64,000 nt of DNA, from assembly GCA_947184155.2 (NCBI GenBank), contig CAMXCT020006268.1, positions 111,001 to 175,000 on the forward strand, written 5' to 3'. The first letter of the stretch is position 1. Each line of letters starts with the position of its first letter. Origin of the DNA: Cladocopium goreaui. Its lineage: Eukaryota; Sar; Dinophyceae; Suessiales; Symbiodiniaceae. The position numbers and the translations under genes are program-made. This document shows, piece by piece, positions 13,656 to 32,058 of this stretch. Under the pieces are notes generated by a model, which was not told the origin of the DNA, did not search any database, and saw only the letters and a list, made by a program, of their open reading frames with translations.

Positions 13656-14147
13656 ACATGGGGGCCGATCGCAAATGCAAGTCTAAGAATTATGAATGGG
13701 TATGTATATCTTGACATCCGCGATTGTAAAACGCTGCATCGCGATTGCTCGGCGATTGGTTTGCGATTGATGCAGTCATCTACTGTGTATATGGGAGAAA
13801 ATCATATATATTATATGTAATTGGAATGCTGTGCACAGATGATGTTCAATTCATTGCACTTTACAGCTTCGCTCTCTCGGCCTTATGGCTCAAGTTACTA
13901 ACGCTCTGGTTCATGGAAAAGGCGCGTGCTGCCCGGCGGCTGGGTCGAGGAGAACAAGAAGGAAACGACCCCAAACGAGTACAAGCACAGGAGCTGGACC
14001 ACAGCCCATTCACAGGTTATCAGCCGTATGCTCACGCTGAGCGTACGGTGGTCCCACGTAATCTTCTACCTCATCGGCATCCTGGTCCTCCTGCCCTACT
14101 ACAAGTCGTGAGCTTGGAGCAAACGGAGGTGGACTGACAACAAGAAG
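13656..14147 (+). other. 5' flank of the mobile block
   Basis: Contains a GCGATTG cluster (about 13720-13770), a stretch ending in TGGCTCAAG at 13886-13894, and an open frame without ATG at 13902-14111 that ends in a hydrophobic tail (HVIFYLIGILVLLPYYKS) and a stop. Parts around AGCTTCGCTC, GGCTCAAG and GGAAAAGG resemble 32485-32545 beyond the other end of the block. I found no clear LTR, primer-binding site or target duplication. Confidence 0.35.
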
Positions 14148-15236
14148 ATGTCGCAGAAGAACCAGTCGAGCAGCAACGACACAAGTGTTTCCTTCGGAGC
14201 GAATGCTGCTCCGGCCCAGGCAATCAATGACACGCATGGATCCCAAGAGAGCGGCGGCGGCACGATGTCTTACCGTGCAGCTGGAAGTATAGCATCAACA
14301 AGCAGCTTCACAGTGGTCAATCAAGCTGACGTAGTTCGAGGAGGAAGTGCCAGAAGAGCAACATCGGCAAGATCACCTCGCGCTGCAAGATCTCGCATTG
14401 CAGAAGACGGCGGTGGCCGAAGCCCGTCGGGCGCGGCCACGCGGGAGGATGAGGCAGGTAAGTCTACCACCTCATCCAAACGCAAGCCATCGACCAGCGC
14501 TACGAGGAATGAGAGCGAGGCACGTCTTCGACGTCAACTACAACACAACACCGAGAAGCTGGAGAGGAGCGAACGGGCAAGGACTGAACTGGAAAACAGA
14601 CTAAGTCTCTATCAGGATGTTCTTGCACACCGTGATCAGATGATTAACAACATGGAGATCTATTCACATCAACATCATGAGGAATATCAAGAACATGTCA
14701 ACTCCGAGATGGAATTCATGAGAGTTTCCCTCATCGACGCACACCATGTACTTGAAGAGCAAACGATCGCACTAGCCGAGGCGCATCTCCTGGACGAAGG
14801 TTCAACAATGAGGATCATCGAGCTGGAGAAGCGTGGTCAACTCGCTGAAGCAGGTGCGGCACACATTGTTCGGGAAAGTATTGAGATGAGGGGAAAGTAT
14901 CTCACTGAACTAGAGAACGCATCACAACTCATTCGTCAACAACATGACACATCTGAAGCTATGACAGTTCACTTTCGTCAAGATGGGCTACAACTGCGTG
15001 AAGCATGTGCACAGTATGTTCAAGACAGGGAGAATGCGAGCAAGGAAGAAATGGAGCAATTGAAACTGAAACTATCAGAGCAATCACACATGATGGCTGA
15101 CAACAATGAGATGATCATGGAATATGGCCAACAAGCTGTTGCAGTACGTGATGAACAGTTGGTAGAGATGCAATCAACTATCGACGATAAAAAAATAAGA
15201 AGGAAAAAATACACAAAAACATACACACAAAACTAA
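14148..15236 (+). CDS. Coiled-coil leader protein of the retroelement (Gag region)
   Basis: Starts at ATG 14148. Residues 1-120 are Ser/Gly/Ala/Arg-rich and low in order; from about 125 onward heptad-rich helices dominate (RLRRQLQHNTEKLERSERAR and on to about 345), typical of a long coiled coil. The sensible reading ends at about 15185 (VEMQSTIDD) and the last codons belong to the A/C-rich block. The coiled coil resumes after that block in another frame (15398), so both were probably one protein. Role inferred: assembly part of Gag. No nucleic-acid motif seen. Confidence 0.6.
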   Translation: MSQKNQSSSNDTSVSFGANAAPAQAINDTHGSQESGGGTMSYRAAGSIASTSSFTVVNQADVVRGGSARRATSARSPRAARSRIAEDGGGRSPSGAATREDEAGKSTTSSKRKPSTSATRNESEARLRRQLQHNTEKLERSERARTELENRLSLYQDVLAHRDQMINNMEIYSHQHHEEYQEHVNSEMEFMRVSLIDAHHVLEEQTIALAEAHLLDEGSTMRIIELEKRGQLAEAGAAHIVRESIEMRGKYLTELENASQLIRQQHDTSEAMTVHFRQDGLQLREACAQYVQDRENASKEEMEQLKLKLSEQSHMMADNNEMIMEYGQQAVAVRDEQLVEMQSTIDDKKIRRKKYTKTYTQN

Positions 15237-15385
15237 ACCAACCCACCCCCTCCAACAAACACCACCACCCTGCACCTCACTCCCCCCCACCCACCCCCAG
15301 TGGGCGGCCCCCCCAACCCATCGCCACCACCACCCCTCCCGCCCCAACTACCCCCAATGTCTACACCTCCGCCCAACCCGACGAA
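15190..15385. repeat. A/C-skewed low-complexity block inside the Gag region
   Basis: On plus this stretch is almost only A then almost only C (AAAAAATACACAAAAACATA grading into CCACCCACCCCCAG). It interrupts a continuous coiled-coil sequence and shifts its frame. It may be a simple-sequence insertion or a consensus error in the assembly. Confidence 0.75.
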
Positions 15386-15397
15386 CTGACTGCCAGT

Positions 15398-16207
15398 TTG
15401 TCGCACAAGGACAACCTCATTGCTATCAGGGATGACGCGAATCGTGATCACATTGTGAAGGTTCGTGACATGAAGAACATGATTCGGGAGAGAGAGGAGG
15501 AGTACAACCGGAAGCACAACGAGCTCGAGGTGGAGATCAGAAGCCTCATGAGAATGAATGAGAACGAGAGTGCTACCCGGGAATGGTATACAAATCGATT
15601 CATTGATGAGAAGAATGAGTTCCGCCAGTTCAAGCATGATGAACTTAGTGCATTCAAGGACAGGGAAATCACCATTGAGCGCGTCAAGGACGAACTCATG
15701 GATGAGAACATGGCTTTGATCGAGTCCACCAACCAGTTGAGAACACGAGTTGCTGAACTGAATGAAGAACTACGTGAGGAACTTCGCAAAGCCAACATGG
15801 AGATCAGTCGACTTCAAGAAGCAGTGGAAAGCAATCCAAAGCTCACTGAGGCACTCATCGACGCCGAAGAGGCAGAAGCAGATAGGTACAAGAAGCTCTA
15901 TCAATCGGCCTGTTCTGAACGCGACCATGTGATCAGGAAGAATGACTCATTGAAGCAATCACTCCACGATGCAAGACTGACAATGAGTACGGTGCCAGCT
16001 TCATGGAGTAGAGTATCGACCAGAGCCACAGTACCAGCTTCACCATCAGCGGTGCCTCCAACGACCTTAGTTTCGAGGACGACTGCACTTACTGGCAAAA
16101 CTCCATCATTTGCAGTATCGATTTCAACTCCTATGGGACGCCCAAAGCATCTTCTACGACGAAGAATCATGATCCTGCTCTACCACCACCACTATCACCT
16201 AGCATGA
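15398..16207 (+). CDS. Second coiled-coil segment of the retroelement leader
   Basis: The frame is open from about 15374 and has no ATG at its start (the listed first codon is TTG), so it is an internal part. About 190 residues of charged helix (REREEEYNRKHNELEVEIRS, LREELRKANMEISRLQEAVE), then a Ser/Thr/Pro linker (about residues 195-240). The last 20 or so codons are out of frame: from about 16135 the linker continues naturally in the next ORF's frame, so a single-base change is likely there. Confidence 0.55.
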   Translation: MSHKDNLIAIRDDANRDHIVKVRDMKNMIREREEEYNRKHNELEVEIRSLMRMNENESATREWYTNRFIDEKNEFRQFKHDELSAFKDREITIERVKDELMDENMALIESTNQLRTRVAELNEELREELRKANMEISRLQEAVESNPKLTEALIDAEEAEADRYKKLYQSACSERDHVIRKNDSLKQSLHDARLTMSTVPASWSRVSTRATVPASPSAVPPTTLVSRTTALTGKTPSFAVSISTPMGRPKHLLRRRIMILLYHHHYHLA

Positions 16208-16440
16208 ACAATGCCATCAACAACCAGACCAACAGTGAGATCGATGATCTTCGTGAGAAGCTCCGTCGGTCTGAAGAACGAGCTCAACAGAACTATGACG
16301 AGATGAAAGAATACCAGAGTTGGCTGGAACAAGTTGAAGAAGGGCAAGAATCTTTGAAAGACAACAGAGCCCCTGAGTTCGAACCCGTTCCTGACAATCC
16401 TCCTGGACTATGGGAACGGAAAAGATGGCAAAGATGCTAG
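16204..16440 (+). CDS. Retroelement leader, third frame segment
   Basis: Short helical stretch (DDLREKLRRSEERAQQNYDE) joined to the preceding linker. After about 16400 (DNPPG) the reading makes sense only in the frame of the Gag-Pol ORF (YGNGKDGKDASVASSDAGQD), so another single-base change is inferred. The ATG at 16204 may be incidental. Confidence 0.5.
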   Translation: MNNAINNQTNSEIDDLREKLRRSEERAQQNYDEMKEYQSWLEQVEEGQESLKDNRAPEFEPVPDNPPGLWERKRWQRC

Positions 16441-16570
16441 TGTTGCAAGCAGTGATGCTGGTCAAGACGGCAAAGATTGGGTAACTAGGATATCCAGGAA
16501 AGAGCACGAGAAGGTCACTGTCAAGCCATGGCCTAAATGCCAAGATCTTGATGTTTGGCGTTCCAACGTC

Positions 16571-19500
16571 GTGCAGGCCGTATGTGTTGCATCAGGTGAT
16601 CCAGACACGGCTGCATGGAGAAGGTGGCTATCCCCTGCTCTATTACCCAGTCCTGATTATGCTGAACTTGCCGATTCAGGAGAATTCCGTTTCCAGTCCA
16701 TTGACTCCAAGTTGTCCATTGCCTTGCAGAACATGGTAGACTCCGCTGGTGAGACGGCATCGGAGGTCAAGGTTCGGATTAGACAGAGGAGCCAAGTCCT
16801 GGGAAAAGAAGGGAATTTCCTGATGGGCAGGGAGATCTTGGCAATGGTATTAGATCATTTCAGAACAACGTCGAAAGATGAAGTATTGTTCAATGCCAGC
16901 CACATCTATAAGTTACAGTATCGTGGCGACAAAGAGATGGATAAGTTCCTCCATGCTTGGATTGAGATTATCGCCAACATGAAGGCTGAAGACATTCCAT
17001 CCGACAACACACTGCGTGATCATCTGCTGAGGAAGATTGATGGTTCCCAGGCATTACACGTCGACCTCACGATCTTCAAGGGCAGGGACAATGATGACAA
17101 GAAGAAGTCATACGGTGAACTCTTGGAGATAATGAGGAGGCACATAGCCCGTGCACGCGAAGATCGCAATATCGCGGCCAGGGACCACAAGTTTGTCCAC
17201 TGCTACCCATCACCTACGCCGAAAGATGGTAAGACCGGAAAGCCGAGCGCTCCTGCACCCAAAGGTAAGCCTGGAGCTCCTGTACTACCTTCCGGCAATC
17301 CTAAGAGCCATGGCAAGGGGAAAGGCAAAGGTGGAAAAAGATCGAGATCACCTTCCACAAGAGACACATCGAAGACCTTTTGTCACTTCCACTTCAACAA
17401 GGGCAATTGCAAGCATGGTGACAAGTGCCAATACAGTCACTCCCAATATCATTGGGACAAGAGGAAGGACAAAGGTGGCAAAGGTAAGAACAGCAGATCG
17501 GCTACTCCAAGAAGATTGCAGACCCCTGGTGGAAAGAAGGATCGACATTGCTATGGTTGGTTAAAGGGCGATTGTCAGAAGGGAGACAAATGTACCTTCA
17601 AGCATGATCCAAGCATGAAGGGCAAGAGGGCGGCGCCTTCTACGAAGACGCCCGACGCCAAAGCTACTCCGGCATTGATCCGTGAGTACGATGATGACTT
17701 CATCGTGAACGCAGTGCCTGTCGAGAAGAAGAACAAGATGGATGTCAAGTTCAATGACAAGGTGGAAACCATCGTGTATGTGAAGCCTGACTTTGTGGAA
17801 TGTTCCAACAGGAAGCCAAAGAGAAACATGTCCAGAGCTCAGAAGAAATCATTGACGTGCAGAACTACCAAAGAAATCATGGATGACCAACAATGGGTAT
17901 TACAATCCAAGTTGGGAATGACAAGAGCACGTGCAATTGGCATACTGATGGACGACTATGGTGAATTCTCTGATGTCGACGAAGTACACATCATCCTGGG
18001 ACCCAAGAATGATATCAAACTCAAGATCAACGACATTGATTTCTTGGAGAACAACTCACGAGCTGAGATATGCTATGAGGAAGTGATTCCTCATGTCCCA
18101 GGACAATATGGTCGTCGTGGCAATGTCATGTGCATCACTATGCCGATCGAGCTCAAGGACCGACGTTTCATCATGGACTCTGGCAGCGGTCATGACCTTA
18201 TCTCATCTACTAGAGTGGATAGGATGGACATTGACACCTACCAGAGCGACCGTGTTAACTTCCACACTGCAAATGGCATCACATCAACAACTACGATGGT
18301 GGATTTGGATTTCGACACGTTCAATGATCCTGCAAGGGCTCATGTGTTGGAGGATGCCCCATCTGTTTTGTCATTGGGAAAACGATGCATGGAGCAAGGC
18401 TACACCTTTGTATGGCCTAGCGGAAGAGAACCCTACATGATCAACTCTGAGGGTGGCAAGATCAAGATGGAAGTTCATGATCTCATCCCATATGTCTACC
18501 TTGGAGCCAAGGACTACAGGCCATCGTCAGACTACGAGGCCGAGTTAGTGATGAAAGTGTTGGGTCTCAGTGGCAACAACCATGCATCAAGGACAATCTA
18601 TCTTGATGGTGAAAGTGGTGATGAAATGTCCGAATCAGATGATGGAGTTGGTACGTACGTCGACGGACCAACGAAGTCTCTGAGGAAGACGAGAAAGAAG
18701 AAGCGTTCCAAACGAAAGACGACTCCGGCAGCGGCTGGTGAAGAACTCGATGATGATGATGACTATGAACAGTCCATCCGCGAAGAGGATCCAGAAGATG
18801 ATGAAGTTCACGTTAATGAAGTTCCTGGTGCGGATGAAGACAAGGAAGATGATGATGATCGAGTACCAGCAGCTGATGATGTTCCAGGAGTCGATCAATC
18901 CGATGAAGATGAAATTGGTGTTGAACATGGACCACCTGAAGAAGAAGATGATGAGGATGATATCGATGTTGACGATCCTGATGGAGGAGTACGTCTATCG
19001 AAGAGAGGTACGTTGAAACATGAAGCTCGTACTCTTGAACATCTTCTGACACATCGATACAAGAACCCATACTGCAATTCTTGCGTAAGGGCCAAGATGA
19101 AGCATCACAAAACCTACAGAGGTGCATTTCGCCGAAAGCTCACAAAGTTCGGCGACCTCATCACCTTCGACTTCATGGATACTCGCAAGACGACCAAGTT
19201 GGGCTACGACACGGTCAAAGAGATTCTTGTCATTCGAGATAGGTATACCGGCATCATTCAGAGCTACCCTTCTCCAACCAAGAACACTGAAGATGTTGTG
19301 AGAGCGGTCAAGTACTTCATGGGAAGACGAACAATCAGGGAAGCCTACTCCGACAAAGCCAGACAGTTTGTCAAGGGCATGGAGGCTCTCAAGATTCCCT
19401 TTGATCATGCCCTGCCGGGAAGACCTTCGACAAATTCTCTTGCCGAGCGCAACAACCAGTTCGTCATTGCAACTACTACCACGTGCTTACTCGAGGCTGG

Positions 19501-19990
19501 ACTACCAGCGTGTTTCTGGAAGTTTGCCATACGATGTGTATGTCATCTACTCAATGTGGAACCTGGCGAAGACGATGTGAGTGCTTGGTGTAAGCTCCAT
19601 GGCGCCGAGTTCAAGGGCGACAAGATCCCATTTGGTGCATTGGTTTACTTCAAACCGAGTGGAGCCCGGGCCAATGAACAAGCTCACAAGTTTGATCCCA
19701 AGGGCATCCCTGGTGTCTTTGCAGGCTATGAAATAGCCCCAGGCGTCAATTGGCGAAGGCAATATATGGCATGGGCCTTGTCTGATATGACGAAGCAGAA
19801 CTATTCGTTCAATGCTAAGACAATCATTGACAAGCTACGCCATCCACATCTCACTGAGAAGATCGAAGTGCACTTGCCATTGACGTTCCCATGCAAGGAC
19901 ATCTACGAGAAGGTGAACACCACGTTGGAAGGGTTAGCAGTGAAAGATCGTCTTGAAGGATCACCAGACTTCCTTGAAGATCAGCAAGAC

Positions 19991-20021
<31 letters not shown>

Positions 20022-21976
20022 ACGACGATGATGAAGGCGATGGTGATGACAAACCTAAGAAAGGTAAGATCACCAATCAAGTTGAACGTCAGGAAGAAGA
20101 GTTCCACCGCCTTATGGAGGAAATGGACATCAAACTCGACAAAGAGAAAGCTGACGATGCAGAAGTTGTTGATGGTCCTCCTCTACCTCCTCCTGATGGT
20201 GAACCTCCTTATGATGGGCCTGAACACCACTCTATGGGCAAACCTGGTGACGGCATCATCTACCTCAGCGACATTGGCGAGCACGTCAAGCTCGACAAGC
20301 GTGGACGACCGTATCGTGTTGGTCCAGATGGTCGCAAAGAAGTACGAGGGTCACCAAGGCCAAAGAGCAGTTACAGCCCTGAAGAATGGAGAGCACTATC
20401 TGCTAAGGAGAGGGATGTCATCATTCGTCGTGGAAAACTTGAAGAAGAAGCTGAGAAGCTCAAGGAGATCAAGTTGAAGAAGGAGAAAGACAAGAAGGCC
20501 AAGGCCGAAATCTCCGAGAAGAAGAAACATGATTCAAGTTCCTCCAAAGATCCAGCCAAAGATGAAAGTCGAAAGAAGAAGAAAAAGGATAATAAGAAGT
20601 CAAAGGAAAGCTCAGGCAAAGATGGTGGCAAGGACGGTGCTGTCGGTGTGGGGACGCTCCGAGGAGAGTGGGAACGTATATCTACGCCCCACAATCCGAT
20701 GACGAGACCGATCCACAAACGAGGTCGCAACCCATGGGAACGTTCGTCGACGCCCCATGGAGCGAGTGATCTCGACGACATCAAGAAGCGCAATGCCACA
20801 TCTCCTTCAGCACCCAGTGAAACGAGCACGAACGTCCCAAGTGATGATGATGGTCAAGAGTTCTTGAATGAGTGGGACGAATGGTCTGAACATGAAGTTG
20901 GAATTGGACCAAGAGCCCACTGGGAAGATGTTCACTATGACTTCAATACCGGGAAAGTCACAGCACCTGCTAATGTTGCACCAGCGACTCCTACCTCAAT
21001 AGACTCCAACGGCAAGTCCAAGGTCAACCACTTCGTGAGTTCAGTTCCTTGTATGCCTTGTGTTCATCAAGACCTTGAACATCGTGAGAAGTTCGGTCAA
21101 ACTGGTGTGAGGTTTGGGAAGTTGTTCAATGCGATGGTCTCACGTCCTGTTGGTCGTAAAGAGATGATGGAAGACCCGGACGCCAAGGCTTCTATGAGGA
21201 ATGAGTGGTTGGGACAGCATAAGCAGGGAGTGTATGACTTCTCCGTTATTCGTGAATACGATGATGTTGTGGCAGAAGCAAAACGTGAAAGAAAAGAAGT
21301 CCATATGGCACGAGTTCACGGCATTTGTGTCGAAAAGAACTATCAGCTACCAAAGGGGAGCCCTGGACGCAAGTTCAAAGGAAGAGGCGTTCTTCTTGGC
21401 AATCAAGTTAAGAACCAGCACTGGGAAGCCGCGTTCTTTCAGGACCTCGGCAACTCTCCAGCGACATTTGAAGCCTCTCGATGGGCAGATTTCTATGGTT
21501 GCATCCCCGGTCACAATGTGAAGTTAGCAGATGCTATTCAAGCATATATTCAAGCGAGGCTCACGGGACCTCCTTGTTGGGTCGAACTCCCTGAAGATGC
21601 ATGGCCGGACGACGTTGACATCCGGAAGTTCAGAAGACCGGTAGTGCGACTTGTCAAAGCACTTTATGGTCCTCCTGATGCGGGCACGATGTGGGAACAA
21701 CATTGTGACAAACATGTCCGTGAAGTTGGTTTTATGCCAGTAGGGGAGGAATGGCCATCAATGTATTTCCATAAGGAACTCAAACTTTTGTCAGTCATCT
21801 ACGTGGATGATCTAAAGTTAGCTGGGCCAGCGCAGAACCTCACCAAAGGTTGGGAAATGTTAAGGTCTAAGCTGCACATAGAACCAGAGACTGATCTGGG
21901 TCTTTATCTTGGTTGTTTGCTAAGCAAAGGGACCAATCGCCTTCATGATGGCACAGAGGTCACAACTATGACCTAA
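16571..21976 (+). CDS. Ty1/copia-type Gag-Pol polyprotein (Gag to reverse transcriptase)
   Basis: Coordinates begin at a GTG; the frame is open from about 16405 and continues the leader. Residues 1-215 are a Gag-like helical domain. Two CCCH fingers follow: C-x8-C-x5-C-x3-H at 271-290 and C-x7-C-x5-C-x3-H at 327-345, set in Lys/Gly-rich RNA-binding linkers. The protease active site is DSG at Asp536. An acidic region (about 715-810) precedes the integrase: zinc-binding HRYKNPYCNSC (Cys835, Cys838) and a probable catalytic triad Asp867, Asp928, Glu959. A poly-Asp stretch lies near residue 1140 and a long charged linker leads to the RT (about 1545-1800), with a motif-A Asp in KLADAIQAYIQA and the YVDD box at 1744-1747. 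The frame ends at a TAA (21974-21976); RNase H continues in the same frame 3 bp on. The protein would copy and integrate the element. Confidence 0.9.
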
Positions 21977-21979
21977 AAT

Positions 21980-24900
21980 ATGGAGGGTCTTTTGAAGCTC
22001 TCTGTTGAAAGGTATCTTGAACTTGTTGGGAAGGATACCAAATTAAAACAGGTCTCAACGCCTAGTCTCCCTGAAGAGACAAAACAACATAAGTCTCGAG
22101 CACCAGCACCTGGGGACCCTAAGCATGCAGTTCAATGTCCTTGGTGTTCTACAAAATTTGATCCTAGATCGTCGGTTGCCTTACAGCCCGATGCCTCCGA
22201 TTTCCGGCCGGAATCTGTTGAAGTCCAACGAGGTGCACTTGCCCCTCATGCTGCTAGCATCTTGATGAAGCTTCTATATGCAGCAAGGATCGCCCGTTTT
22301 GATTTGTTGAGATCGATCAATACATTAGCACGCAATGTGACAAAATGGTCCATACAAGATGATGCAAAACTATACCATCTTATGTGCTATGTCAACTCTA
22401 CCTTAGGGAAGAGAATGATTGGATGGGTCGGCAATGATATGAAAGATCTATCCATTGCGTTATATGCAGATGCTGACTTTGCGGGATGTGCACAATCTTT
22501 GAGGTCCACATCAGGTTCTCATATGCATATTCAGGGGAAACGTACTCGGTTTCCGTTAGCTGGTGGAAGCAAACGCCAGGGGTGTGTGAGCCATTCTACA
22601 CCTGAAGCTGAGATCGTAGCCGCTGATGTAACCCTTCGAACAATGGGTCTTCCTGCGCTCAGTATTTGGGAAACGCTTACAGAATCATCTCCCAAGCTGT
22701 TGTTTCATGATGACAACCAAGGGATGATTGGTGTGGTTCGTTCTGGAAGGAATCCAACAATGCGGCATCTGGAAAGGACTCATGGAATTTCTATTACGTC
22801 GTTACATGAGCATTTCAGCAAAGATCACTTTGTTCTCATGTATGAGATCACAGCGAAGATGGCCGCGGACATCCACACAAAAGGGTTTACAAACCCACTT
22901 GCCTGGAAAAAGGCATGTATGTTGATCAATCTTTTGGAACCCGAAGACCTTGGTTCGAAGCAATTGGCAGACCTAGTGCAGCCCACTACGGATGTTGACA
23001 CTACAGTTCGTCAAGTTTTTCAGTCAAGGACAGATGAGGTTCCCAATTTTCCATATACTGAAACACCCATACTGCCACCTGAGGTGTACCGTAAGGGTCT
23101 TTCAAGTCGAGAAAAGCTTCAAGAGCTACCTGGTATGGATCCTATCTTTGCGGTCAAAACCCCTACATTGTTCAGAACAAGACCAGCTGGTGTCAAACTT
23201 CCTGCAGATTGCCTTCGGAGCACCTGGATCTTAGTCCACGGGAAGTGGGAACGAGTTGAGGATCGTGTTCCCCCATTGTTACAACAATCACGTTTTGACA
23301 AATGGATTGCAAGGGCATGTTTTCAATATCACTATCCCACTTCCGCTCCGATTGTCTCACTGCCCGCATGTGCGTCGACGGCGGCCAGAGAACAGTTCTC
23401 ACGTGCGGCGACGTTTGAACTGGACAATCATCCGAGCCTCACATTCAGTACTGAAATTCTCTTTGAACAAGCTCAACGTCCTCAGAAGATTCCGTTTTCG
23501 TTATATGAAGGGAATCCCATGACTATACGGGTGATCAATGCCCTAGTACGCCTTGTTCATGGGGGGAGAGGCATGGAGGATTCAAAGTCGTCAAGTTTCA
23601 AAATAAAGTTAACAAAATCGCCAATGCGGAGAAGAAACATCAAGAAAGTAGCATCAGCAACTGAATGTGGTCATGATGAAGTTCCTGTTCGTGATGAATG
23701 GAGATGGATAGGTGATCATATTCTGGAAAGGATCCACAATATACCAAGAAGAGAAATGTTCGTTCCAAGTGATTGTGAAGATTGTCCTTGTGATCATCGT
23801 TTGATTCAAGATTGGAGAGAAACTCAATCGAAGTTCCAGTCGAATGTGAGGGTGGACAAAAGTAATTGGCGTCTCCCTGGTGATAATGGAGAAAGGTCAA
23901 ACAATCGAAATGAATTCTGGACTGGAAAGTCTATCTTTCGTGTTTTGAGACATCAGGAGGTTCTTCCGATTGCGAGTTGCATTATGGATGATAATCTGAT
24001 GGCTTGTGTTAACACCATGGGTCTGGACATCATTTCACCGAGCAAGATATTTATTCCCCACACATATCGGATGATGATCGAAGAGAACAAGAATGACAAT
24101 GAGTTGAATATATTTGCGGACAGTCTGATCAATTTATTATTGGTTCGTGACAATGGGCAATGCATGAAGTATACGTTCGTCAGATCTATTCCCGATCTCG
24201 AGAGTACAAAATACTTGGGGAAGAACGTCACTATTACATTGCAAGAGTTGCCCGAAAGTACACCCGCTATGATATTGATGTGTGCGGAGCCTTCAAGTTT
24301 GATGACAAAGAGATACAGTACAATTATGGATACATCTACTCATCTGGAATTGATCACGGAGGATGATGACCTTCTCTCCAGATATGGGAGTGCGAAGTGG
24401 AGGAGATGCCTCCGCAGTAACAAGGATTGCGTCTTCTTCGCTGGACCTTGCACAGGCGGATCTCCATGGAACAGGCTGAACAAAAGAGTTAGTTGGTTTA
24501 CTGCTCACTTGATCAACGCCAAAGCACGTCTATACTGGAAGTTATGGGAAGAGTTTTCGAATTGTCTTCTGAAAGTGATCGAGTTGGATGCCATGGCACT
24601 ATTGGAATTACCAAGAGGTTGCGACTATTGGCATGATGAACGGATGAAGTGCATGATTGAAGGCACAGAATCACATATCCATGACTTTGACGGATGCATG
24701 TATGGTCTGAAGACACAGTTTGATGATCGTCATATTCCTATTAAGAAGCCATGGAGGATTGTATCGTGGGGGGTCAAATTTGATTTACACAAGAAGTGTG
24801 ACCGAAGACATGATCATGGGAAGTGTGAAGGTCGTGAAACAAGGATCACTCAGACCTACACCCGGCAAATCGTCGACATCATCTTGAAAACGATATGTCG

Positions 24901-26776
24901 AAATGTGTCTATTCGGTTCAAGAAGTCGTTGTCGAATGGAGATGACACATGCAGCAGTTGCGTGCATGATAGACGTTCCATCAAGAAGACAGCGGTATCA
25001 GTTGCATACAACAGTGATGAAGTTGCAGCAGATCTCATGTGGTTGATGATGTTTCACAAGAGTAGATGTCGGATCAATGTTGACCCTGATTTCTCAGGAC
25101 ATCAAACTACGGGAAGTCAATCTTGCAAGACTTTTGCGGCTTCTCACTCATCGTGTGCCACCGGACGAGTGATCGGAAACCGGATCGGACGTCGCCGACC
25201 GGGAGTACGTGACCTCAAAAGGGCTCACTCGCTGCGCACCGCCGAACAGGGGATTGGAAACCGGATCGGACGTCGCCGACCGGGAGTACGTGAACCGATC
25301 GGTAAGGTTGCCATGTCGAACTACTCGCAGATCGTTGGTTCTGCGCAACATGATCTCAACGACATCAGCAAAATCCTCATCACGTTGAGAGAGAATGGCA
25401 GACAAGGTGCCATCCCAGCCATGTACAAGGAGTATGACCCGACCATCAACAGCCAGCCTGACGTTACGGTCAACAAGTGGCATGCGATAGGAATTAGTCC
25501 GATCGCGGCGACTTCAGCCTGCTACTTGGGTAAGGTGCCATCGAACCGGGTGAACCAATCTGTCCCTGCTGAGGACACGTGGTTGAGTGCAACAAGGAAG
25601 AAGGACGGAGTCCTCAATCCGTCCGACCCTGATGCGCCCATCACCATCTCGTTCAGGGCAATCCATCGAGAACTCCATTACTTCGACATGGGCACGTCAT
25701 GGCAGTCGACATCAACCCAGAACACATTCAATGCGATGCTCGATGAGTGGCAGCGTCAAGTCATCCATCTTGGGCATGCATGGAGATGCTACAACCAAAA
25801 GGTCGACGATGAGGGAGAGATGGTAGATCCTATGACGTTGGAGACAACGATCAATGACCTCATCGAGCAGAATACCAAGTTGGGCCGCGAGCGAGCTGCC
25901 GCAGTGAATCACTTCACTTGCATTTTGGCTCTATCGCCACCGATCTTCAGGGCCAGGGCGAAGCTGGATAGGTTGTGGCATTTTTCCGAGATTGCAAGGA
26001 CGAACATCAAGAAGATTGACGATTACTTTGCTAAGATTCAACAATCTCTGATGCTCACTTCGGAAATCTTGCAGAACCATGGCTACAATGTCATCAACGT
26101 CGAGGAAGGCAACCACGGTGAGATCAAGAAAAGAAACAAATGCTTTTCTGCCCTGAGGGATTTCATGACAACCCTCTCTGAAACTCAGGCTGGTGGAGGA
26201 CAACCTGGAGTACAAGTGGCTGCAAGTGGATGGAGAAAAGTCTTGAGGTTTGGTGATGGAGTTTGGCCACCAGAACCGCCGAGGTCGTGGATTCCTGAAT
26301 GGGTCACGATCCAAGACCCAACAGTGCCTGCACCGAGGGTCACCAGGTTCACGCCGAAGCCACCTCCTATGCCACCACCTGGATACAAGGCACCACCACA
26401 GCCTTACCCATCGGCACAACCACCACCGCCGAAGGCAAGACCAACATCACCAACGGCACCACCAGGACCGAGTGCATCGGGATCTCAGGCGTCAGGTTCA
26501 GCTGGACCACCACCGCCACCGCCACAGGCGGCACCCAAGCCTGCGGCGAAGCCAATGCCAAGGCGTGAGACTCCGGCAACGGACTACGTCCCACCAATGA
26601 CACCATCAAATGTGATTACATATTGTAGAGTGTTGACGGACTACACGGGGACTCAGGTGAGATCGATCTTGAATACCCATGTGAGTGCTACCGACACCGA
26701 GTTTGCCTGTCGCATGTTCAAGGACCTATGGCGTACAATGTGCAATCAACTTGGCGTCAATACCTCAGAAGGGTAG
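21980..26776 (+). CDS. RNase H end of copia Pol, C-terminal extension and ORF-A
   Basis: Same frame as Gag-Pol, separated only by one stop. Residues about 85-320 are the copia RNase H: YADADFAG, TPEAEIVAAD, HDDNQGMI and ITAKMAADIHTKGF supply the acidic residues. About 320-550 is unassigned. About 560-980 is a Cys-rich extension with DCEDCPCDH and the methyltransferase-like segment described separately. Two copies of GNRIGRRRPGVR occur at about 1065-1105. From the ATG at 25313 (ORF-A) the style changes: about 270 helical residues, then a Pro-rich linker (KPPPMPPPGYKAPPQPYPSA region) and a short C-terminal segment ending at 26776. ORF-A could be a separate protein. I recognise no family for it; a Gag-like role would fit its shape. 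Confidence 0.75.
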   Translation: MEGLLKLSVERYLELVGKDTKLKQVSTPSLPEETKQHKSRAPAPGDPKHAVQCPWCSTKFDPRSSVALQPDASDFRPESVEVQRGALAPHAASILMKLLYAARIARFDLLRSINTLARNVTKWSIQDDAKLYHLMCYVNSTLGKRMIGWVGNDMKDLSIALYADADFAGCAQSLRSTSGSHMHIQGKRTRFPLAGGSKRQGCVSHSTPEAEIVAADVTLRTMGLPALSIWETLTESSPKLLFHDDNQGMIGVVRSGRNPTMRHLERTHGISITSLHEHFSKDHFVLMYEITAKMAADIHTKGFTNPLAWKKACMLINLLEPEDLGSKQLADLVQPTTDVDTTVRQVFQSRTDEVPNFPYTETPILPPEVYRKGLSSREKLQELPGMDPIFAVKTPTLFRTRPAGVKLPADCLRSTWILVHGKWERVEDRVPPLLQQSRFDKWIARACFQYHYPTSAPIVSLPACASTAAREQFSRAATFELDNHPSLTFSTEILFEQAQRPQKIPFSLYEGNPMTIRVINALVRLVHGGRGMEDSKSSSFKIKLTKSPMRRRNIKKVASATECGHDEVPVRDEWRWIGDHILERIHNIPRREMFVPSDCEDCPCDHRLIQDWRETQSKFQSNVRVDKSNWRLPGDNGERSNNRNEFWTGKSIFRVLRHQEVLPIASCIMDDNLMACVNTMGLDIISPSKIFIPHTYRMMIEENKNDNELNIFADSLINLLLVRDNGQCMKYTFVRSIPDLESTKYLGKNVTITLQELPESTPAMILMCAEPSSLMTKRYSTIMDTSTHLELITEDDDLLSRYGSAKWRRCLRSNKDCVFFAGPCTGGSPWNRLNKRVSWFTAHLINAKARLYWKLWEEFSNCLLKVIELDAMALLELPRGCDYWHDERMKCMIEGTESHIHDFDGCMYGLKTQFDDRHIPIKKPWRIVSWGVKFDLHKKCDRRHDHGKCEGRETRITQTYTRQIVDIILKTICRNVSIRFKKSLSNGDDTCSSCVHDRRSIKKTAVSVAYNSDEVAADLMWLMMFHKSRCRINVDPDFSGHQTTGSQSCKTFAASHSSCATGRVIGNRIGRRRPGVRDLKRAHSLRTAEQGIGNRIGRRRPGVREPIGKVAMSNYSQIVGSAQHDLNDISKILITLRENGRQGAIPAMYKEYDPTINSQPDVTVNKWHAIGISPIAATSACYLGKVPSNRVNQSVPAEDTWLSATRKKDGVLNPSDPDAPITISFRAIHRELHYFDMGTSWQSTSTQNTFNAMLDEWQRQVIHLGHAWRCYNQKVDDEGEMVDPMTLETTINDLIEQNTKLGRERAAAVNHFTCILALSPPIFRARAKLDRLWHFSEIARTNIKKIDDYFAKIQQSLMLTSEILQNHGYNVINVEEGNHGEIKKRNKCFSALRDFMTTLSETQAGGGQPGVQVAASGWRKVLRFGDGVWPPEPPRSWIPEWVTIQDPTVPAPRVTRFTPKPPPMPPPGYKAPPQPYPSAQPPPPKARPTSPTAPPGPSASGSQASGSAGPPPPPPQAAPKPAAKPMPRRETPATDYVPPMTPSNVITYCRVLTDYTGTQVRSILNTHVSATDTEFACRMFKDLWRTMCNQLGVNTSEG
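24270..24880 (+). other. Methyltransferase-like segment in the copia extension
   Basis: After a hydrophobic strand (CVFFAGPCTGGSPWNRLN) comes a Pro-Cys plus Gly-Gly loop, then LLELPRGCDYWHDE, then FDGCMYGL and IPIKKPWRIVSWG. The order (acidic strand HLELITEDD, PC loop, E-x-P) recalls SAM-dependent cytosine methyltransferases, and methyltransferases captured by eukaryotic retrotransposons have been reported. The match is by motif only; the SAM-binding Gly-rich loop is not clear, so this is a lead. Confidence 0.35.
25171..25294. repeat. 38-bp direct repeat, 81 bp apart, inside the ORF
   Basis: GGAAACCGGATCGGACGTCG... through GGGAGTACGTGA occurs at 25175-25212 and 25256-25293 with no mismatch seen. 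The 81-bp offset keeps frame. It sits exactly where the sequence style passes from the copia extension to ORF-A. Confidence 0.9.
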
Positions 26777-29376
26777 CTACGTACACCTGCTTGTGTTTCG
26801 GACTCGCCAATGCAAGAGAGATCGGTGAAGCATCCTACCCGTTCAGCGACATGGAATGGCTGAGAGTCTACAACGCTGCAACGAAGCGTGGGGGGTTGGT
26901 CTACCAGAACTACTATCTCTCTGTTGGGTCCATGACGGTCATGGTGGAGAAGAACGATGATGCACGGGCCACCGACCGCAACTACGACAAGTGGAAGCGA
27001 GGCCTGATGTCAGGCATCGGTGGGACCATAGTGGACAAGCCAATGGTGAGGAAGGAGAAAGATGAATTGGCAGGAAAATTCAGGTTCGGCAAGACCATTT
27101 TGATCACGGACCACAACTACAAGTGCCAATCGAACTCAAGGGGAACAACGAACATCCAATATGGGCTTGACGAAATGGGATATGCCGTCACGGTCATCGA
27201 CATCAACAGCTTCAAGAGCGTGACCAGAGCCCAGAAGTTCCTCGATGCAGTCGAGCACTTGATCAAGGGCGTGATGCCAGACATTGCGGCCGAGGAGAAT
27301 GTGACCATCCATTTTTGGATATCATTTGCATTCCTCATCACGGACACTCATCCATATCATGTTTGGGTCGAAAGAAACTATGCAGAGAGGCTCGCTGAGG
27401 CGATCCGAAGTGTCGACAAGTTGGCGACAAGACCAATCTTTGTGTCGCTCTGCAAGGATCCAAGATTTCATGGTATCCGATCAGGCATTCAGGACGTCGC
27501 CATGGACTCAGCCGACATCCTGAGGAGCTTCGGTATCATGGTCACAACTGATGATGGGATGTGGCGATTGATGTATGGTCATGCCGGCAATCACTATATG
27601 AACAATCAAAATAGGCCGGAACGATTGGGAGTCTTCGCCACCATGGAGAAGTTCTTGTTTCGACAGAGGGTATTGTTGATGTGCTCCCTCAATGTTGAAG
27701 CTGCAAAAGGGTTGAACGACATGGTGAGGGAATCTTCCATGAAGGTCGGCATCAACCTGGAGCTGATGGAGGATGTGCTCAAGGAACCTCTTTCAATTCG
27801 AATTGGAACGGGAGGCGGAGTACCTGACACCGCGAGCACGGAATCAACGCGCCCAGGTACCGTTGGAGGTGGAAGAAGATCAAGTGTTGAGTATGAGAAG
27901 GCACCATGGATCGAGGCCACAGTCAGATCGGTTCTTCCTGAGCCATCGGCAAACATGTATGACATGTGGTTCTACGTCAACCATGGGCGAGATGAGATGA
28001 TTCTATGTCAAGGGCATTACAATGGGGATGACGATGAAGTTATGCCAACCGACCAAATGAGGCAAGACTGCAACTGTGGAAAAGAATGCATCGCTTGCCG
28101 AGCAAGCGAGACGATGAGGGACTACCAGCTTTGGCCGCCAGAATACCAGAGAAAGACGATCGTGAAAACGGCGGCACGGTCCCGTGCATTCTTCAACATT
28201 ATGTTGGAATCAGGCAATCCAGTGACAGACCCTCAGAAGGACTTTGTGCAGTTCCTCAAGGACATCACCAAATCGATGGTGGGCAACAAAGGGTGCGAGC
28301 ACGGTGAAATCCTCATGAAGGCGCTGTCGCACTTTGGAATGGTCAGAGTTCCCAGAGATCGAGTCAAACAGATCTTCGTTGGGAAACGTGGGAGACAATA
28401 CGGTGTCATCCGAGAAGAGTTCACTCTGGGTGATGGCAACGATGCCCATGATCGATTTGCATATCGTGTTACCAAGGATTATGGGAATGTCTTCTACAAG
28501 GACTACCTCAAGATGGTGCTCGGAGATGATTTCACGGAGGTCATGGGATATGCTGATGTGACGGCCGAAAAATGTGGCGATGTAGTCGAAATGTGGCTTG
28601 GAATGTTGGATTTGGCCAACATGACGAAGTCCCAGATCACATTCATGGAGACAAAGGCCGATCCAGGTGAACTTCTTGCAGGCCTGGAAGCATCCATCAA
28701 CATCTTCCATGGGACGACAAGATCTACCACAACTCCAAACACGAAGAGAGGTGGATCAAGGATCACCGAACCTACCAACTATGAGGAGGCGCTGGTGAAC
28801 CAAATCCTGCGTGACATCCCAATGTACCATGGATTGCAATATGCATGCCTGATTGAGGACAAGGAGATCAGCGTCATCAACGAAAACTACAAAAGGTCCA
28901 AGGCTGATGACACCAATGATGACAACATGGAGTCCGAAGGTCCAAGGACCGGGGAAGGTACGTCGACCACCCCAGGACCGACGACCGGAGGAATTGGAGC
29001 TAGTGCTGAAGGGGCAGGTACGTCGACCACCCCGGATATGCGCGAAGCGCCTAAATCTCCATCGAATCCTGAAGAGGAGTTCCAGATCTCTCAGGACAAA
29101 GGTGCCATCGTCGAGGCCATCAACGCGCTCTTTGCCCTGGCGGACGACAACAACGTCTGCCTAAAATGTGGCGAAAGTGGCCATCCCAACTATGAATGTC
29201 CCAAGCAAGGCAATGATCCAGTGAAGTCAGCATTGATCAACTTGAGGAAGAAACTACAGGGCGACGATGTAGAAAAAGATGATGCTCCCAAAAGAGATGA
29301 TGAGGAGGAGCAACGGAAAAGAGCATCAATGGAGTCAGAGCCGAAGAGAAGGGCCCCAAATCGAAAGATGAGCTGA
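26728..29376 (+). CDS. ORF-B: large accessory protein ending in a CCHC zinc knuckle
   Basis: 882 residues from the ATG at 26728; its frame is open back to 26629, so it overlaps ORF-A by about 148 bp and lies one frame back. Residues 100-290 look like an alpha/beta domain (KTILITDHNYK, VTIHFWISFAFLITDTHPYH, RPIFVSLCKDPRF, DDGMWRLMYGHAGNH); an SGNH-hydrolase-like fold is possible but unproven. A Cys cluster CNCGKECIACRAS is at about 450. The Ser/Thr-rich tail holds CLKCGESGHPNYEC, with Cys811, Cys814, His819 and Cys824 of a classical C-x2-C-x4-H-x4-C nucleic-acid-binding knuckle, as in retroviral-type Gag. It ends in a charged tail that overlaps ORF-C. Family unknown. Confidence 0.65.
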   Translation: MAYNVQSTWRQYLRRVATYTCLCFGLANAREIGEASYPFSDMEWLRVYNAATKRGGLVYQNYYLSVGSMTVMVEKNDDARATDRNYDKWKRGLMSGIGGTIVDKPMVRKEKDELAGKFRFGKTILITDHNYKCQSNSRGTTNIQYGLDEMGYAVTVIDINSFKSVTRAQKFLDAVEHLIKGVMPDIAAEENVTIHFWISFAFLITDTHPYHVWVERNYAERLAEAIRSVDKLATRPIFVSLCKDPRFHGIRSGIQDVAMDSADILRSFGIMVTTDDGMWRLMYGHAGNHYMNNQNRPERLGVFATMEKFLFRQRVLLMCSLNVEAAKGLNDMVRESSMKVGINLELMEDVLKEPLSIRIGTGGGVPDTASTESTRPGTVGGGRRSSVEYEKAPWIEATVRSVLPEPSANMYDMWFYVNHGRDEMILCQGHYNGDDDEVMPTDQMRQDCNCGKECIACRASETMRDYQLWPPEYQRKTIVKTAARSRAFFNIMLESGNPVTDPQKDFVQFLKDITKSMVGNKGCEHGEILMKALSHFGMVRVPRDRVKQIFVGKRGRQYGVIREEFTLGDGNDAHDRFAYRVTKDYGNVFYKDYLKMVLGDDFTEVMGYADVTAEKCGDVVEMWLGMLDLANMTKSQITFMETKADPGELLAGLEASINIFHGTTRSTTTPNTKRGGSRITEPTNYEEALVNQILRDIPMYHGLQYACLIEDKEISVINENYKRSKADDTNDDNMESEGPRTGEGTSTTPGPTTGGIGASAEGAGTSTTPDMREAPKSPSNPEEEFQISQDKGAIVEAINALFALADDNNVCLKCGESGHPNYECPKQGNDPVKSALINLRKKLQGDDVEKDDAPKRDDEEEQRKRASMESEPKRRAPNRKMS

Positions 29377-29414
29377 ACGACATCGTCGACACAGCGAGTC
29401 AAAGGGGCATCACT

Positions 29415-31934
29415 GTGACTTGCAAGGAGGTGAAATCGGCTGTTCCATACTCCGACCACAGGATGTACAAGAAGCTCAACATCGGCACGGACATTGGGAA
29501 GCTCAAGATTCTCCCGGTCAATGGTGGCAAGTTCTACTCCGAACGCTTTGTTGGACCCGGAGTGGAGTATCCACTACCGACCGAGTCCAGAGCCAACCGT
29601 GTCTTCATGGAAGATTGGGAGAAGACGTACAGTTACTACTTCAACAAGGCCCTGAGACACCACATCGGACGAAAGGAGGTGTGGGAGAAGGCTTCTGGTA
29701 GAAGGAGAACGACATTTTCCGGGCTCAGATGTGATGAAGCCGGATGGGTGGACATCATGGAATTCCTGCATCACCCATGGATCTTCGATCACGAGCAAGT
29801 CAAGACGGAGGATGACGGACTTGTTGATGTCGACTACCGAGCGGAGCGCATCAAGACCATGATCAAGACTGTTTGGTCAGAGTTCCAAGAGAAGAACAAA
29901 ATCCGCATCCAATTCCTATGCATCGTTCTCGATTCTACATTCGTCAAACCCGATGATTACCTCAAGAATGTCATGGGAGTCGGTGATGACATCCATGATC
30001 TCATTGCGCAACGTGGTGAAGTCTTCCTAGCACCCGTTGCTGTGCGTTCACCTGGAGGATTTTCTGCCCGTGGATCAGATTTTCGCCTTGATTATTGCAA
30101 GATTTGTCACCCGATCACAACGAGGATCGCAGACGATATCTGGTTCTGCTATCATGTTACCGAGTTCAAGAATGTGATCGGCATCATCAAAGAAGGTCTA
30201 CGACCTGGAGGACACCGAGAAGGACGAACACAAGTTTTCCTCAACCCCTTTGTGCCATGGGACAAGCGATATAGGGAGATCCTAGGAGGACAATTGACAC
30301 ACCTAGGGCAACCACGCATGGTCCTCGCATTCAGCGTTCATCGACTCATGAGTCTTGGAGTCATGATCAACGCATCTGGCCAAATGGTGGTAAACGGAAA
30401 CATTCCCTTCTCCGAGGTGACCGCAGCGTGGTATCAGAACAACAACTATGATTGGGAACGACTAGTGGTTGATTCTGGAAAGTTTCAATTGGTAAGATCA
30501 TGTCAAGAACCAAAGGAGATTGCAACGGCAAACACGGCGCTTCGTGTCTCCAAGGCCTTGCTGGACGACATTGACAGCGAGGACAACATTCCGTTCTACG
30601 ACAAGTTCGTCGAGGATGTTGCAAAACTTGAATCACTCAATGGAGCCCTCAGCCCTAATAGTGAGCTGAGGAACGACATCGTGACGTTCATTTCCGAGAA
30701 CTACACTCCGGGAGAAGCTGGACACTTGATATGCCCAGCATGCCTTACTGAGACTCCAAACATTCTATCCATCTGCATCAGGTGCCATGGAACGCTTGTC
30801 AGCTGGGGGGAGAAAGAAGCAGAGAAAGATGAGAGCACTGCCCCTGGAATGCCAGAAAGAGAAAGGCATGAAAGCGGAGATGGTCAAGATGCTGATGACG
30901 ATGACGTCGAGATGGAGAATGAGGACCAGGAGGAGATTGACAGACTGGTCAGGGAATCAAAGAAGAATACCGAGGAGGCTCCGGATGATGACATTGACAT
31001 GACTGACGCCAGATCAAGCCACGAGAACGTCAGACCTGAAGAAGAACGCCGACGCAATGTGCCTGATCAGAAAGTTGTATTCGGTGACAACACCAAAGAG
31101 CAACAAGAAGAAGAAGATGAAAAGGTTGCCAAAGAACAAGACCAAGATGAAGAGCGCCGGGAAGCAAGGATGCGGTTGCCTGTGTGGACAACAAGGATCA
31201 TGCAAGCTTCACTTATTCAATGTATCGATATTGCCCAGAATGAGGACGCCATCGACAGCACAGCTCGCGCGATGGACTGCATGATTCTGAGCTACCTCAA
31301 GGATCGATATCATCTATGGACTTCAGTGGCGCCAGCCCAGCAGTATCATGACCACGTGATGAGACTCAAGCTTATTCCTGAATTTGACGGATACATTCCA
31401 TACGTGGGCGAAACTGCAGATGGCGAATTGAAGGAACCAACAGAAGCACAGCTGATCGCTTCATTCCATGCGAATGCCAAGAATGGAAAGATCGGCGGAC
31501 GTGATTTAGAAACCTATTTGAAGGGTGTGAATGGTATTCGAGTACTTTGCAAAATTATGAGGTACTTGGTCCAGATCGGCATCACCCCTCAGCTCATCTT
31601 CTCCAAGGTTGCCGACAACACGGACGAGGACGACGAGCGGCAATCGGAAGCACGACGGGAATCATCTGACTTTGTCAGGAAGATTATCTCCGGTGCCTTT
31701 GCCGTACGTTCCTATGACTATTTTCGAGTCACACCACCTCGACGGGACGATCATGTTCATATTGATCCTGTAGAACTAGCATGTGCAGTGACGGAAAGAT
31801 GCAGAACATTTACCATCCTCGTGACGCTCAACAAGATCGGCCTGGAGCTACCTCAGCAACTACGCAAAGTTTGGCAAGGAAAGAGCTGTACAACAGAGCG
31901 CAGCACAGATGGCTACATGTCTCAGATCGCTTGA
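29415..31934 (+). CDS. ORF-C: Tpt1/KptA-like RNA 2'-phosphotransferase fused to zinc ribbon and acidic region
   Basis: Coordinates start at a GTG; the frame is open from 29304, overlapping ORF-B one frame back, and there is no good ATG. Residues 78-125 match the Tpt1 N-terminal lobe (KALRHHIGR with Arg81 and His82; GLRCDEAGWVDIMEFLHH). Later come VAVRSPGGFS, in place of the usual R-A-x-Q-G-H-S; CYHVTEFKNVIGIIKEGLRP (His247), in place of HGT...I..GL; GRTQVFLN; and VMINASGQMVVNGNIP, in place of S-x-N-G-V. Tpt1 enzymes remove a 2'-phosphate from RNA splice junctions using NAD. The first Arg-His pair and one Arg are kept; other catalytic positions have changed, so activity is uncertain. A zinc ribbon (Cys440, 443, 454, 457) and an acidic region (about 475-585) follow. 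Near 31870 the natural reading moves to another frame that ends at 32058 with a basic tail KKRRKR. Confidence 0.6.
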   Translation: MTCKEVKSAVPYSDHRMYKKLNIGTDIGKLKILPVNGGKFYSERFVGPGVEYPLPTESRANRVFMEDWEKTYSYYFNKALRHHIGRKEVWEKASGRRRTTFSGLRCDEAGWVDIMEFLHHPWIFDHEQVKTEDDGLVDVDYRAERIKTMIKTVWSEFQEKNKIRIQFLCIVLDSTFVKPDDYLKNVMGVGDDIHDLIAQRGEVFLAPVAVRSPGGFSARGSDFRLDYCKICHPITTRIADDIWFCYHVTEFKNVIGIIKEGLRPGGHREGRTQVFLNPFVPWDKRYREILGGQLTHLGQPRMVLAFSVHRLMSLGVMINASGQMVVNGNIPFSEVTAAWYQNNNYDWERLVVDSGKFQLVRSCQEPKEIATANTALRVSKALLDDIDSEDNIPFYDKFVEDVAKLESLNGALSPNSELRNDIVTFISENYTPGEAGHLICPACLTETPNILSICIRCHGTLVSWGEKEAEKDESTAPGMPERERHESGDGQDADDDDVEMENEDQEEIDRLVRESKKNTEEAPDDDIDMTDARSSHENVRPEEERRRNVPDQKVVFGDNTKEQQEEEDEKVAKEQDQDEERREARMRLPVWTTRIMQASLIQCIDIAQNEDAIDSTARAMDCMILSYLKDRYHLWTSVAPAQQYHDHVMRLKLIPEFDGYIPYVGETADGELKEPTEAQLIASFHANAKNGKIGGRDLETYLKGVNGIRVLCKIMRYLVQIGITPQLIFSKVADNTDEDDERQSEARRESSDFVRKIISGAFAVRSYDYFRVTPPRRDDHVHIDPVELACAVTERCRTFTILVTLNKIGLELPQQLRKVWQGKSCTTERSTDGYMSQIA

Positions 31935-32058
31935 TCCTGCAGAACGTGAAATTGCCAGGCAATACGTTCGAGCACTTGGTGATGAACAACCCGCAGAAGA
32001 GGAGGCTTCGGCGAGCACCAAGGGGACCGACACTGGCAAGAAACGGCGCAAAAGGTGA

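Follow-up and report, generated by a model that had tools for sequence, protein, structure and literature searches.

The coral-symbiont dinoflagellate Cladocopium goreaui carries, in a 64,000-nucleotide stretch of contig CAMXCT020006268.1 (positions 111,001 to 175,000, hereafter the window), a decayed Ty1/copia-type retrotransposon with long terminal repeats (LTRs), which extends over positions 13816-32641 of the plus strand. Judged by alignment, it belongs to an abundant family of giant (~19 kb) elements of the Symbiodiniaceae, whose intact members encode one polyprotein of ~6,000 amino acids (aa). In this polyprotein, gag, protease (PR), integrase (INT), reverse transcriptase (RT) and ribonuclease H (RNase H) are followed by two modules termed A and B, a zinc knuckle, a domain of the NAD-dependent RNA 2'-phosphotransferase family Tpt1/KptA and a zinc ribbon. 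The interpretation favored here, with moderate confidence, is that the window harbors a broken copy of such an element and that the Tpt1 domain would act on the element's own RNA or primer inside the particle.

A single reading frame from gag to Tpt1

An earlier note on this DNA had described a copia element followed by a distinct cassette of three overlapping open reading frames (ORFs A, B and C). The relationship between these parts becomes apparent from an intact copy on contig C302 of the same genome, which has two 216-bp LTRs with 100% identity. From the ATG to the stop codon, this copy comprises 6,080 codons in one frame, and together with 12 codons upstream of the ATG it forms an open frame of 6,092 aa that contains both RT and ORF C. 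In a second subfamily, which is ~75% identical in RT, three copies have frames of 5,946-6,048 aa; in 3/3 checked, the Tpt1 region is located where expected and, by coordinate arithmetic, shares the frame of RT. In relatives, gag-PR-INT-RT-RNase H-A-B-Tpt1-zinc ribbon forms a single reading frame. Among at least 184 protein clusters from three protein searches (one of them with 120 of its 135 listed), many cross the ORF boundaries of the window. P0036 covers the stretch between PR and module A, while P0048 and P0050 (the latter with 1,335 member sequences) run across B into Tpt1, the former from RNase H via A and the latter from A. P0139, P0144, P0146, P0147, and P0148 cover A to Tpt1 with 26-34% identity, except in the core of module A, which is better conserved.

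Compared to these read-through relatives, the window copy switches frames near 15.2-15.4, 16.1, 16.4, 26.7, 29.3, and 31.9 kb and has a stop codon at 21974-21976 where the relatives are open; it is therefore a broken member of the family. The overlapping ORFs of the window are, by comparison with these relatives, fragments of one frame, and the notion of a separate three-ORF cassette is not supported because A, B, and C are in-frame parts of a single polyprotein in intact copies. The features of the element are as follows, with motifs chosen by eye and their coordinates located by script.

13816-32641, plus strand: whole element, decayed Ty1/copia-type LTR element
13816-14014, plus strand: 5' LTR, 199 bp, TG...CA, from alignment with the intact-copy LTR of 216 bp (L015/L031/L032)
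14015-14048, plus strand: leader with primer-site-like stretch, then an 11-bp hairpin (14024-14048), from sequence and RNA fold
14148-16422, plus strand: N-terminal gag, coiled-coil-like, split over three frames here, from tblastn with the first 983 aa of the intact copy (89-94% identity)
16421-21973, plus strand: gag CCCH fingers, PR (DSG 18176), INT (HHCC 19019-19084, D 19169, D 19349, E 19436) and RT (YVDD 21800), from Pfam and motif coordinates
21974-21976, plus strand: in-frame stop codon within the RT/RNase H polyprotein, open in relatives
21977-23230 (end approximate), plus strand: RNase H, motifs at 22469-22720, from motifs and single-frame relatives
23624-24946, plus strand: module A, conserved core ~24341-24907 (PCxGGSPW), from homology to the module after RNase H in the distant relatives L043/L044
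26707-29322, plus strand: module B, ending in a CCHC zinc knuckle (29158-29199), from Pfam zf-CCHC_3 and co-linearity in relatives
29601-30473, plus strand: Tpt1/KptA-like domain (motifs 29652-30269), from Pfam, motifs and profile-profile comparison
within this domain, plus strand: RNA lobe with LRH 29652 and KxR 29898-29906; NAD lobe with YHxT 30150, GR 30222 and PWDKR 30255
30732-30785, plus strand: zinc-ribbon-like CxxC...CxxC, 3' of the Tpt1 domain, from motif, without Pfam match
31873-32055, plus strand: C-terminal end of the polyprotein, in a different frame in this copy, from tblastn with the intact-copy C-terminus (92%)
32412-32417, plus strand: polypurine tract GGGGGG directly 5' of the 3' LTR, from sequence
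32418-32641, plus strand: 3' LTR, 224 bp, TG...CA, from homology to the intact copy

INT lies before RT, and the order PR-INT-RT-RNase H on the plus strand is therefore that of copia elements, as the earlier note had proposed; only the limits of the element had to be corrected to the above coordinates. The zinc knuckle reported for the middle ORF and the Tpt1-like domain and zinc ribbon reported for the last ORF were likewise all located by motif. In Pfam searches, the copia-type RT model RVT_2 scores just below its cut-off of 31.6 in the window (30.5 bits, E 3.4e-7), perhaps due to the stop that cuts the frame, and lies above the cut-off in the relatives P0084 and P0092. CCCH fingers, a weak aspartyl protease match (E 0.003) and the zf-CCHC_3 zinc knuckle (E 5e-4, below cut-off) were also detected in the window, while the Pfam integrase models gave no match there and the integrase is assigned by its motifs. 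Thus, the family has an integrase, by motif, upstream of a copia-type RT as well as TG...CA LTRs, which are identical in the intact copy and diverged in the window.

No terminal repeats had been recorded in the earlier note, and plain repeat searches of the window against itself recovered none because the pair, which shares its ends, is only 51% identical over 192 aligned bases; the LTRs were revealed by homology to the intact copy. Each of them is 54-62% identical to the intact-copy LTR, beside 89-95% protein identity of the coding stretches (tblastn). This is unlike a simple single insertion, and exchange or recombination between elements may be the cause. A clear 5-bp target-site duplication around the window element was not seen by eye. 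The leader hairpin has a fold z of -3.8 in the window and -4.9 in the intact copy, in which pairs are altered on one side. Upstream of the 5' LTR, an ORF on the same strand (11663-12832) with nitrite/sulphite reductase 4Fe-4S and Rieske domains ends at a distance of ~1 kb and is probably host gene sequence.

Conservation and spread of the Tpt1 domain

The linkage of RT and Tpt1 was analyzed in the assembly of 1,165,616,438 bases in 6,202 contigs, where only best-scoring candidates were counted, so that the resulting lists are lower bounds. ORF C has at least 59 match rows in this genome, some of which are pieces of one copy, and matches at least 33 protein clusters in the public protein database. 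Among 44 close RT loci (at least 88% identity; the two C4998 pieces taken as one locus), ORF C lies at most 13 kb downstream of RT on the same strand in 27, with a gap of 7.6-8.0 kb in 21/27. In three of the remaining 17 loci the contig ends before the expected ORF C place, and inspection of 1.5 kb at this place in the other 14 revealed C in two, only B in two and neither in ten, one of which has gag of the window's family there. ORF C is thus found after RT in 29/41 testable close loci (27 by distance and two by direct look). Module B is located within 1.5 kb upstream of C in 27/30 loci including the window, and one of the three exceptions starts at a contig end. The central claim that a copia element carries a Tpt1-like enzyme is borne out by this linkage and by the open frames spanning both parts in several copies. 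Cassettes standing alone, with copia elements lacking them, are not what is seen. Altogether, the pattern indicates that copia RT and Tpt1 have been co-inherited over a long time. One RT locus (G000:C195:288422-289639), located near a contig end, is 100% protein-identical to the window RT and is either a sister copy of very recent origin or a duplicate within the assembly.

For the Pfam family PF01885 (PTS_2-RNA), which has a gathering cut-off of 26 bits, scores of 16.4 (P0001), 17.4 (P0048), 27.9 (P0139), 47.4 (L043), and 44.7 bits (L044) were obtained in relatives; P0084 and P0092 gave no Pfam Tpt1 match. Profile-profile comparison with hhalign of the copia Tpt1-like set against template set A4, consisting of three canonical sequences and two from a second retroelement type described below, resulted in 97.6% (E 4e-12), and in 98.7% (E 4.5e-16) when L043 and L044 were added, which establishes homology at the profile level at 19% identity to canonical Tpt1. 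The catalytic tetrad is kept among the sequences covering each site (R118 60/60, H119 60/60, R201 58/60, R308 55/56), as are the NAD-site residues H284 (57/57) and T286 (58/58), while 8.5% of the alignment columns are fully invariant. These counts refer to 73 aligned sequences with gaps excluded, and the residues are named after PMC6333775, with alignment and motif rather than structure as the basis of the mapping. L043 and L044 have another residue in place of the tetrad histidine. From these comparisons, the ORF C family is assigned to Tpt1/KptA, and 2'-phosphotransferase activity is predicted. The check by hidden Markov model suggested in the earlier note found support for Tpt1 in the relatives P0139, L043, and L044 and in the profile-profile comparison; the window copy itself remains below the cut-off.

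The ratio of nonsynonymous to synonymous substitutions (dN/dS) was calculated by the Nei-Gojobori method with an own script for copies from this genome. Among 20 ORF C copies, the median pairwise dN/dS is 0.081 for the Tpt1 domain (189/190 pairs), while the tail and the N-terminal part have values of 0.086 (189 pairs) and 0.085 (179 pairs), respectively. The two parts of module B have medians of 0.106 (187 pairs) and 0.117 (190 pairs) in 20 copies. The pairs are not independent, and the sets include stop-bearing copies, namely four of C and one of B (L017) with seven stops. The values point to strong purifying selection on the Tpt1 domain, as an estimate and not as a formal test.

When PF01885 was searched against the own genome, the 150 best of 1,496 candidates were scored and all were above the cut-off. 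Three of them resemble free enzymes (174-180 bits), two of which are on contigs that look bacterial by eye. Of the 150 matches, 114 are within open frames of at least 1,000 aa, 14 of these in frames of 4,015-4,045 aa. Nine of the 147 matches that do not resemble free enzymes were read (L036-L042, L043, and L044). L043 (3193-9999, minus strand) and L044 (3-7028, plus strand) are copia relatives with 38% and 42% identity to the window's RT and 34% to its RNase H; the RVT_2 score of L044 is 22 bits, below cut-off. Their frames of 4,025 and 3,924 aa encode RNase H followed by module A, Tpt1 and the zinc-ribbon-like motif. L036-L042, which are seven of 22 matches at 92-101 bits, represent a second, non-copia retroelement type with an RNase-H-like stretch common to all seven. 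In the one upstream part that was read (L045), an RT-like stretch with an MDD motif is present. The Tpt1 domain of this type is close to the canonical one (100-101 bits) and was found on contigs C3624, C2112, C251, C2623, C3201, C680, and C5831, the last being the window's own contig with a copy at 307165-307665. By its likeness to SymbioDIRS elements, we take this type to be possibly DIRS-like, which Pfam did not confirm.

Outside this genome, Symbiodinium sp. KB8 has a protein with copia RT (P0092, RVT_2 E 7.9e-9) and Tpt1-like domain (E 5e-31) as well as a partial Tpt1-like domain (P0111, E 2e-8). In P0084, Tpt1 directly follows RNase H. In a tree of 14 Tpt1 domains, a branch (100/99) has the window's lineage, P0139, P0146, P0084, and P0092 on the same side, with L043/L044 and the second retroelement type elsewhere; being unrooted, the tree does not fix the number of captures. 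A search for relatives in viral contigs confirmed 0/9 pattern matches. By these similarities, more distant copia families and a second type of retroelement likewise have a fused Tpt1, and its spread is wider than the earlier note could see. Bacterial-looking Tpt1 genes are located on contigs C1 and C5523 (L034, L035, and L046), the former of which also has a tRNA-Met; they probably derive from associated bacteria in the assembly.

Module A and the module that follows RNase H in L043/L044 are homologous (hhalign 99.4%; BLASTP E 3e-16 and 5e-15). The core of module A at 24341-24907, with the motifs PCxGGSPW...N, EL, CxYW, FxGCxxG, KKxW, and CDxxHxH, is well conserved across deeply split copia families and has no match in Pfam or the PDB. 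A relationship to C5-DNA-methyltransferases (PF00145), prompted by a Pro-Cys and a Glu motif, is not supported, as hhalign gave a probability of 0.7% against three DNA methyltransferases (DNMTs) of this genome, near the 0.0-0.4% of five shuffled controls. Module B gave no Pfam match beyond the zinc knuckle and no credible match in the PDB, and homology to the central part of L043/L044 could not be detected. Between the two modules, a 70-base unit is present in two direct copies 81 bases apart (25143-25293), ~250 bases before the point where P0050 has 108 extra residues.

A proposed role in RNA-end processing and its alternatives

Tpt1 enzymes catalyze the NAD-dependent removal of internal 2'-phosphates (PMC6333775), which arise when cut RNA is sealed by a Trl1-type ligase (PMC6456296), and are reported to ADP-ribosylate 5'-phosphorylated RNA with the same tetrad (PMC6582358). 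In the copia elements, the Tpt1 domain would be delivered into the virus-like particle by the element protease or in fused form, and the flanking zinc knuckle and ribbon could guide it to the element's own RNA or primer. There, it would strip internal 2'-phosphates left by cleavage-and-ligation repair and/or ADP-ribosylate 5'-phosphate ends, and the treated RNA would survive and could be reverse transcribed. Both reactions are retained in this proposal because the 5'-end reaction does not need a Trl1-type ligase. The conservation of an apparently intact enzyme in many copies suggests an importance of RNA repair or RNA-end chemistry for the copying of the element.

Several observations weigh against this interpretation. 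The window copy reaches only 15.1 bits (E 0.025) with PTS_2-RNA and has no match to NCBIfam Tpt1, and P0017 has no Pfam Tpt1 match. In a PDB profile search, Tpt1 appeared only with E 0.4 behind an unrelated dehydratase (E 0.009); the dehydratase match is treated as spurious, as it begins in an N-terminal overhang present in only some rows. A fungal-type tRNA ligase domain (PF09511) was not found in this genome, in a search in which no control genome matched either. A primer tRNA was not found with a search pattern for an anticodon arm that could pair with the primer-site-like stretch; the pattern yielded 35 places, 32 of them judged by eye only and three analyzed with ARAGORN. One of these three, the tRNA-Met on the bacterial-looking contig C1, was considered for half-tRNA priming and rejected, as its arm and the complement of the element's stretch differ at the anticodon; ARAGORN found no tRNA at the other two. 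The flanks of the intact copy match as a target-site duplication in 4/5 bases by eye. Finally, the testable RT loci with neither B nor C (10/41) or with B only (2/41) may indicate that Tpt1 is dispensable or that these loci are truncated or shifted.

The same ten loci, together with the different frames of the parts in the window copy, would also be expected if an unrelated A-B-C element or gene had landed beside a copia element by chance. This explanation is highly improbable and was rejected, as it is contradicted by the single frame that joins RT and Tpt1 in the 6,092-aa copy as well as in three second-subfamily copies, by the regular spacing in 21/27 loci, and by the identical LTRs that bracket the whole intact copy. 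A non-catalytic role of the Tpt1-like domain, in which it would bind RNA or serve the particle as a structural component, is unlikely, but would agree with the zinc motifs on both sides of the domain, with its divergence and the sub-cut-off Pfam score of the window copy, and with the replaced histidine in L043 and L044. It is opposed by the retention of the tetrad and of the NAD-site His and Thr in a proportion of at least 58/60 across the window's lineage versus 8.5% invariant columns.

Slightly more weight, at a still low probability, is given to counter-defence, in which the domain would be a host-manipulating ADP-ribosyltransferase whose modification of host RNAs, RNA ends or proteins would weaken RNA-based silencing or decay. 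The large distance of the family from canonical Tpt1 fits this role, as do the 5'-phosphate ADP-ribosylation by Tpt1 enzymes (PMC6582358), the presence of KptA in some RNA-virus polyproteins and the fast divergence of viral ADP-ribosyltransferases, which has been read as a sign of a role in conflict (both PMC9503650). In contrast, the copies are under strong purifying selection without an arms-race signature (median dN/dS 0.08), the residues contacting the junction 2'- and 3'-phosphates are preserved, and the domain is within the gag-pol frame and hence would be packaged with the RNA.

Known systems and implications

LTR elements with captured enzymes and RNA-virus polyproteins with KptA have been described before. 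The retrotransposons SymbioLINE-Dnmt, SymbioDIRS-Dnmt3, and KnitGypsy-Dnmt3 from Symbiodinium and charophytes, in part from the same algal family, likewise carry a captured nucleic-acid enzyme in multiple copies under purifying selection, but this enzyme is a DNMT and not Tpt1 (PMC5890265). The same paper reports abundant copia elements without DNMT domain, and its main text has no mention of Tpt1, phosphotransferase or ADP-ribosylation. KptA is also located inside large polyproteins of RNA-based parasites in Beihai picorna-like virus and Botrylloides leachii nidovirus, which are positive-strand RNA viruses and not retroelements; the terms retrotransposon, retroelement and reverse transcriptase are absent from the main text (PMC9503650). 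Orchid Ty3/Gypsy elements of 25 kb resemble the copia family as giant LTR elements with an RNA-modifying enzyme, the m6A RNA demethylase AlkB, which is active in vitro, but differ in being Gypsy elements with a demethylase encoded in an additional ORF, and Tpt1 is not mentioned in the abstract (PMC9289625). In bdelloids, the same types of extra enzymes, DEDDy exonuclease and GDSL esterase, occur in unrelated retroelements, namely LTR elements and Terminons, but in extra ORFs, and the main texts are without phosphotransferase (PMC5408684, PMC6431247).

With the canonical Tpt1/KptA from Clostridium thermocellum, the copia version shares the RNA and NAD lobes, the Arg-His-Arg-Arg tetrad and the H-x-T motif by alignment, but the former is a small free enzyme and the latter part of a polyprotein (PMC6333775). 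By eye, the copia version also shows an insertion of residues that separates the KxR motif from the next Arg motif. A description of Tpt1/KptA in a retrotransposon was not found in the literature searched, with subscription papers and preprints largely outside its scope; within these limits, Tpt1 in a retroelement is apparently undescribed.

According to PMC6333775 and PMC6582358, Tpt1 is widespread in organisms without a known source of RNA 2'-phosphates, and its natural substrate outside fungi and plants is open. A retroelement with a catalytic-looking Tpt1 under purifying selection, present in many copies and in several families, offers a direct route to this question, with the substrate expected on the RNA, cDNA or primers of the element. 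The enzymes captured by retroelements would then include one for RNA repair, and the element would also provide a concrete case of a ~6,000-aa retrotransposon polyprotein. A more far-reaching and rather doubtful possibility is that retrotransposition in these algae includes RNA-end repair as an integral step, with the NAD-dependent RNA 2'-phosphotransferase supplied by copia elements and one or more unrelated types of retroelement. In this step, cut-and-religated element RNA or a cleaved tRNA primer would be cleaned before reverse transcription or capped with ADP-ribose. If true, dinoflagellates would have a so far undiscovered pathway of RNA-cleaving defence or repair.

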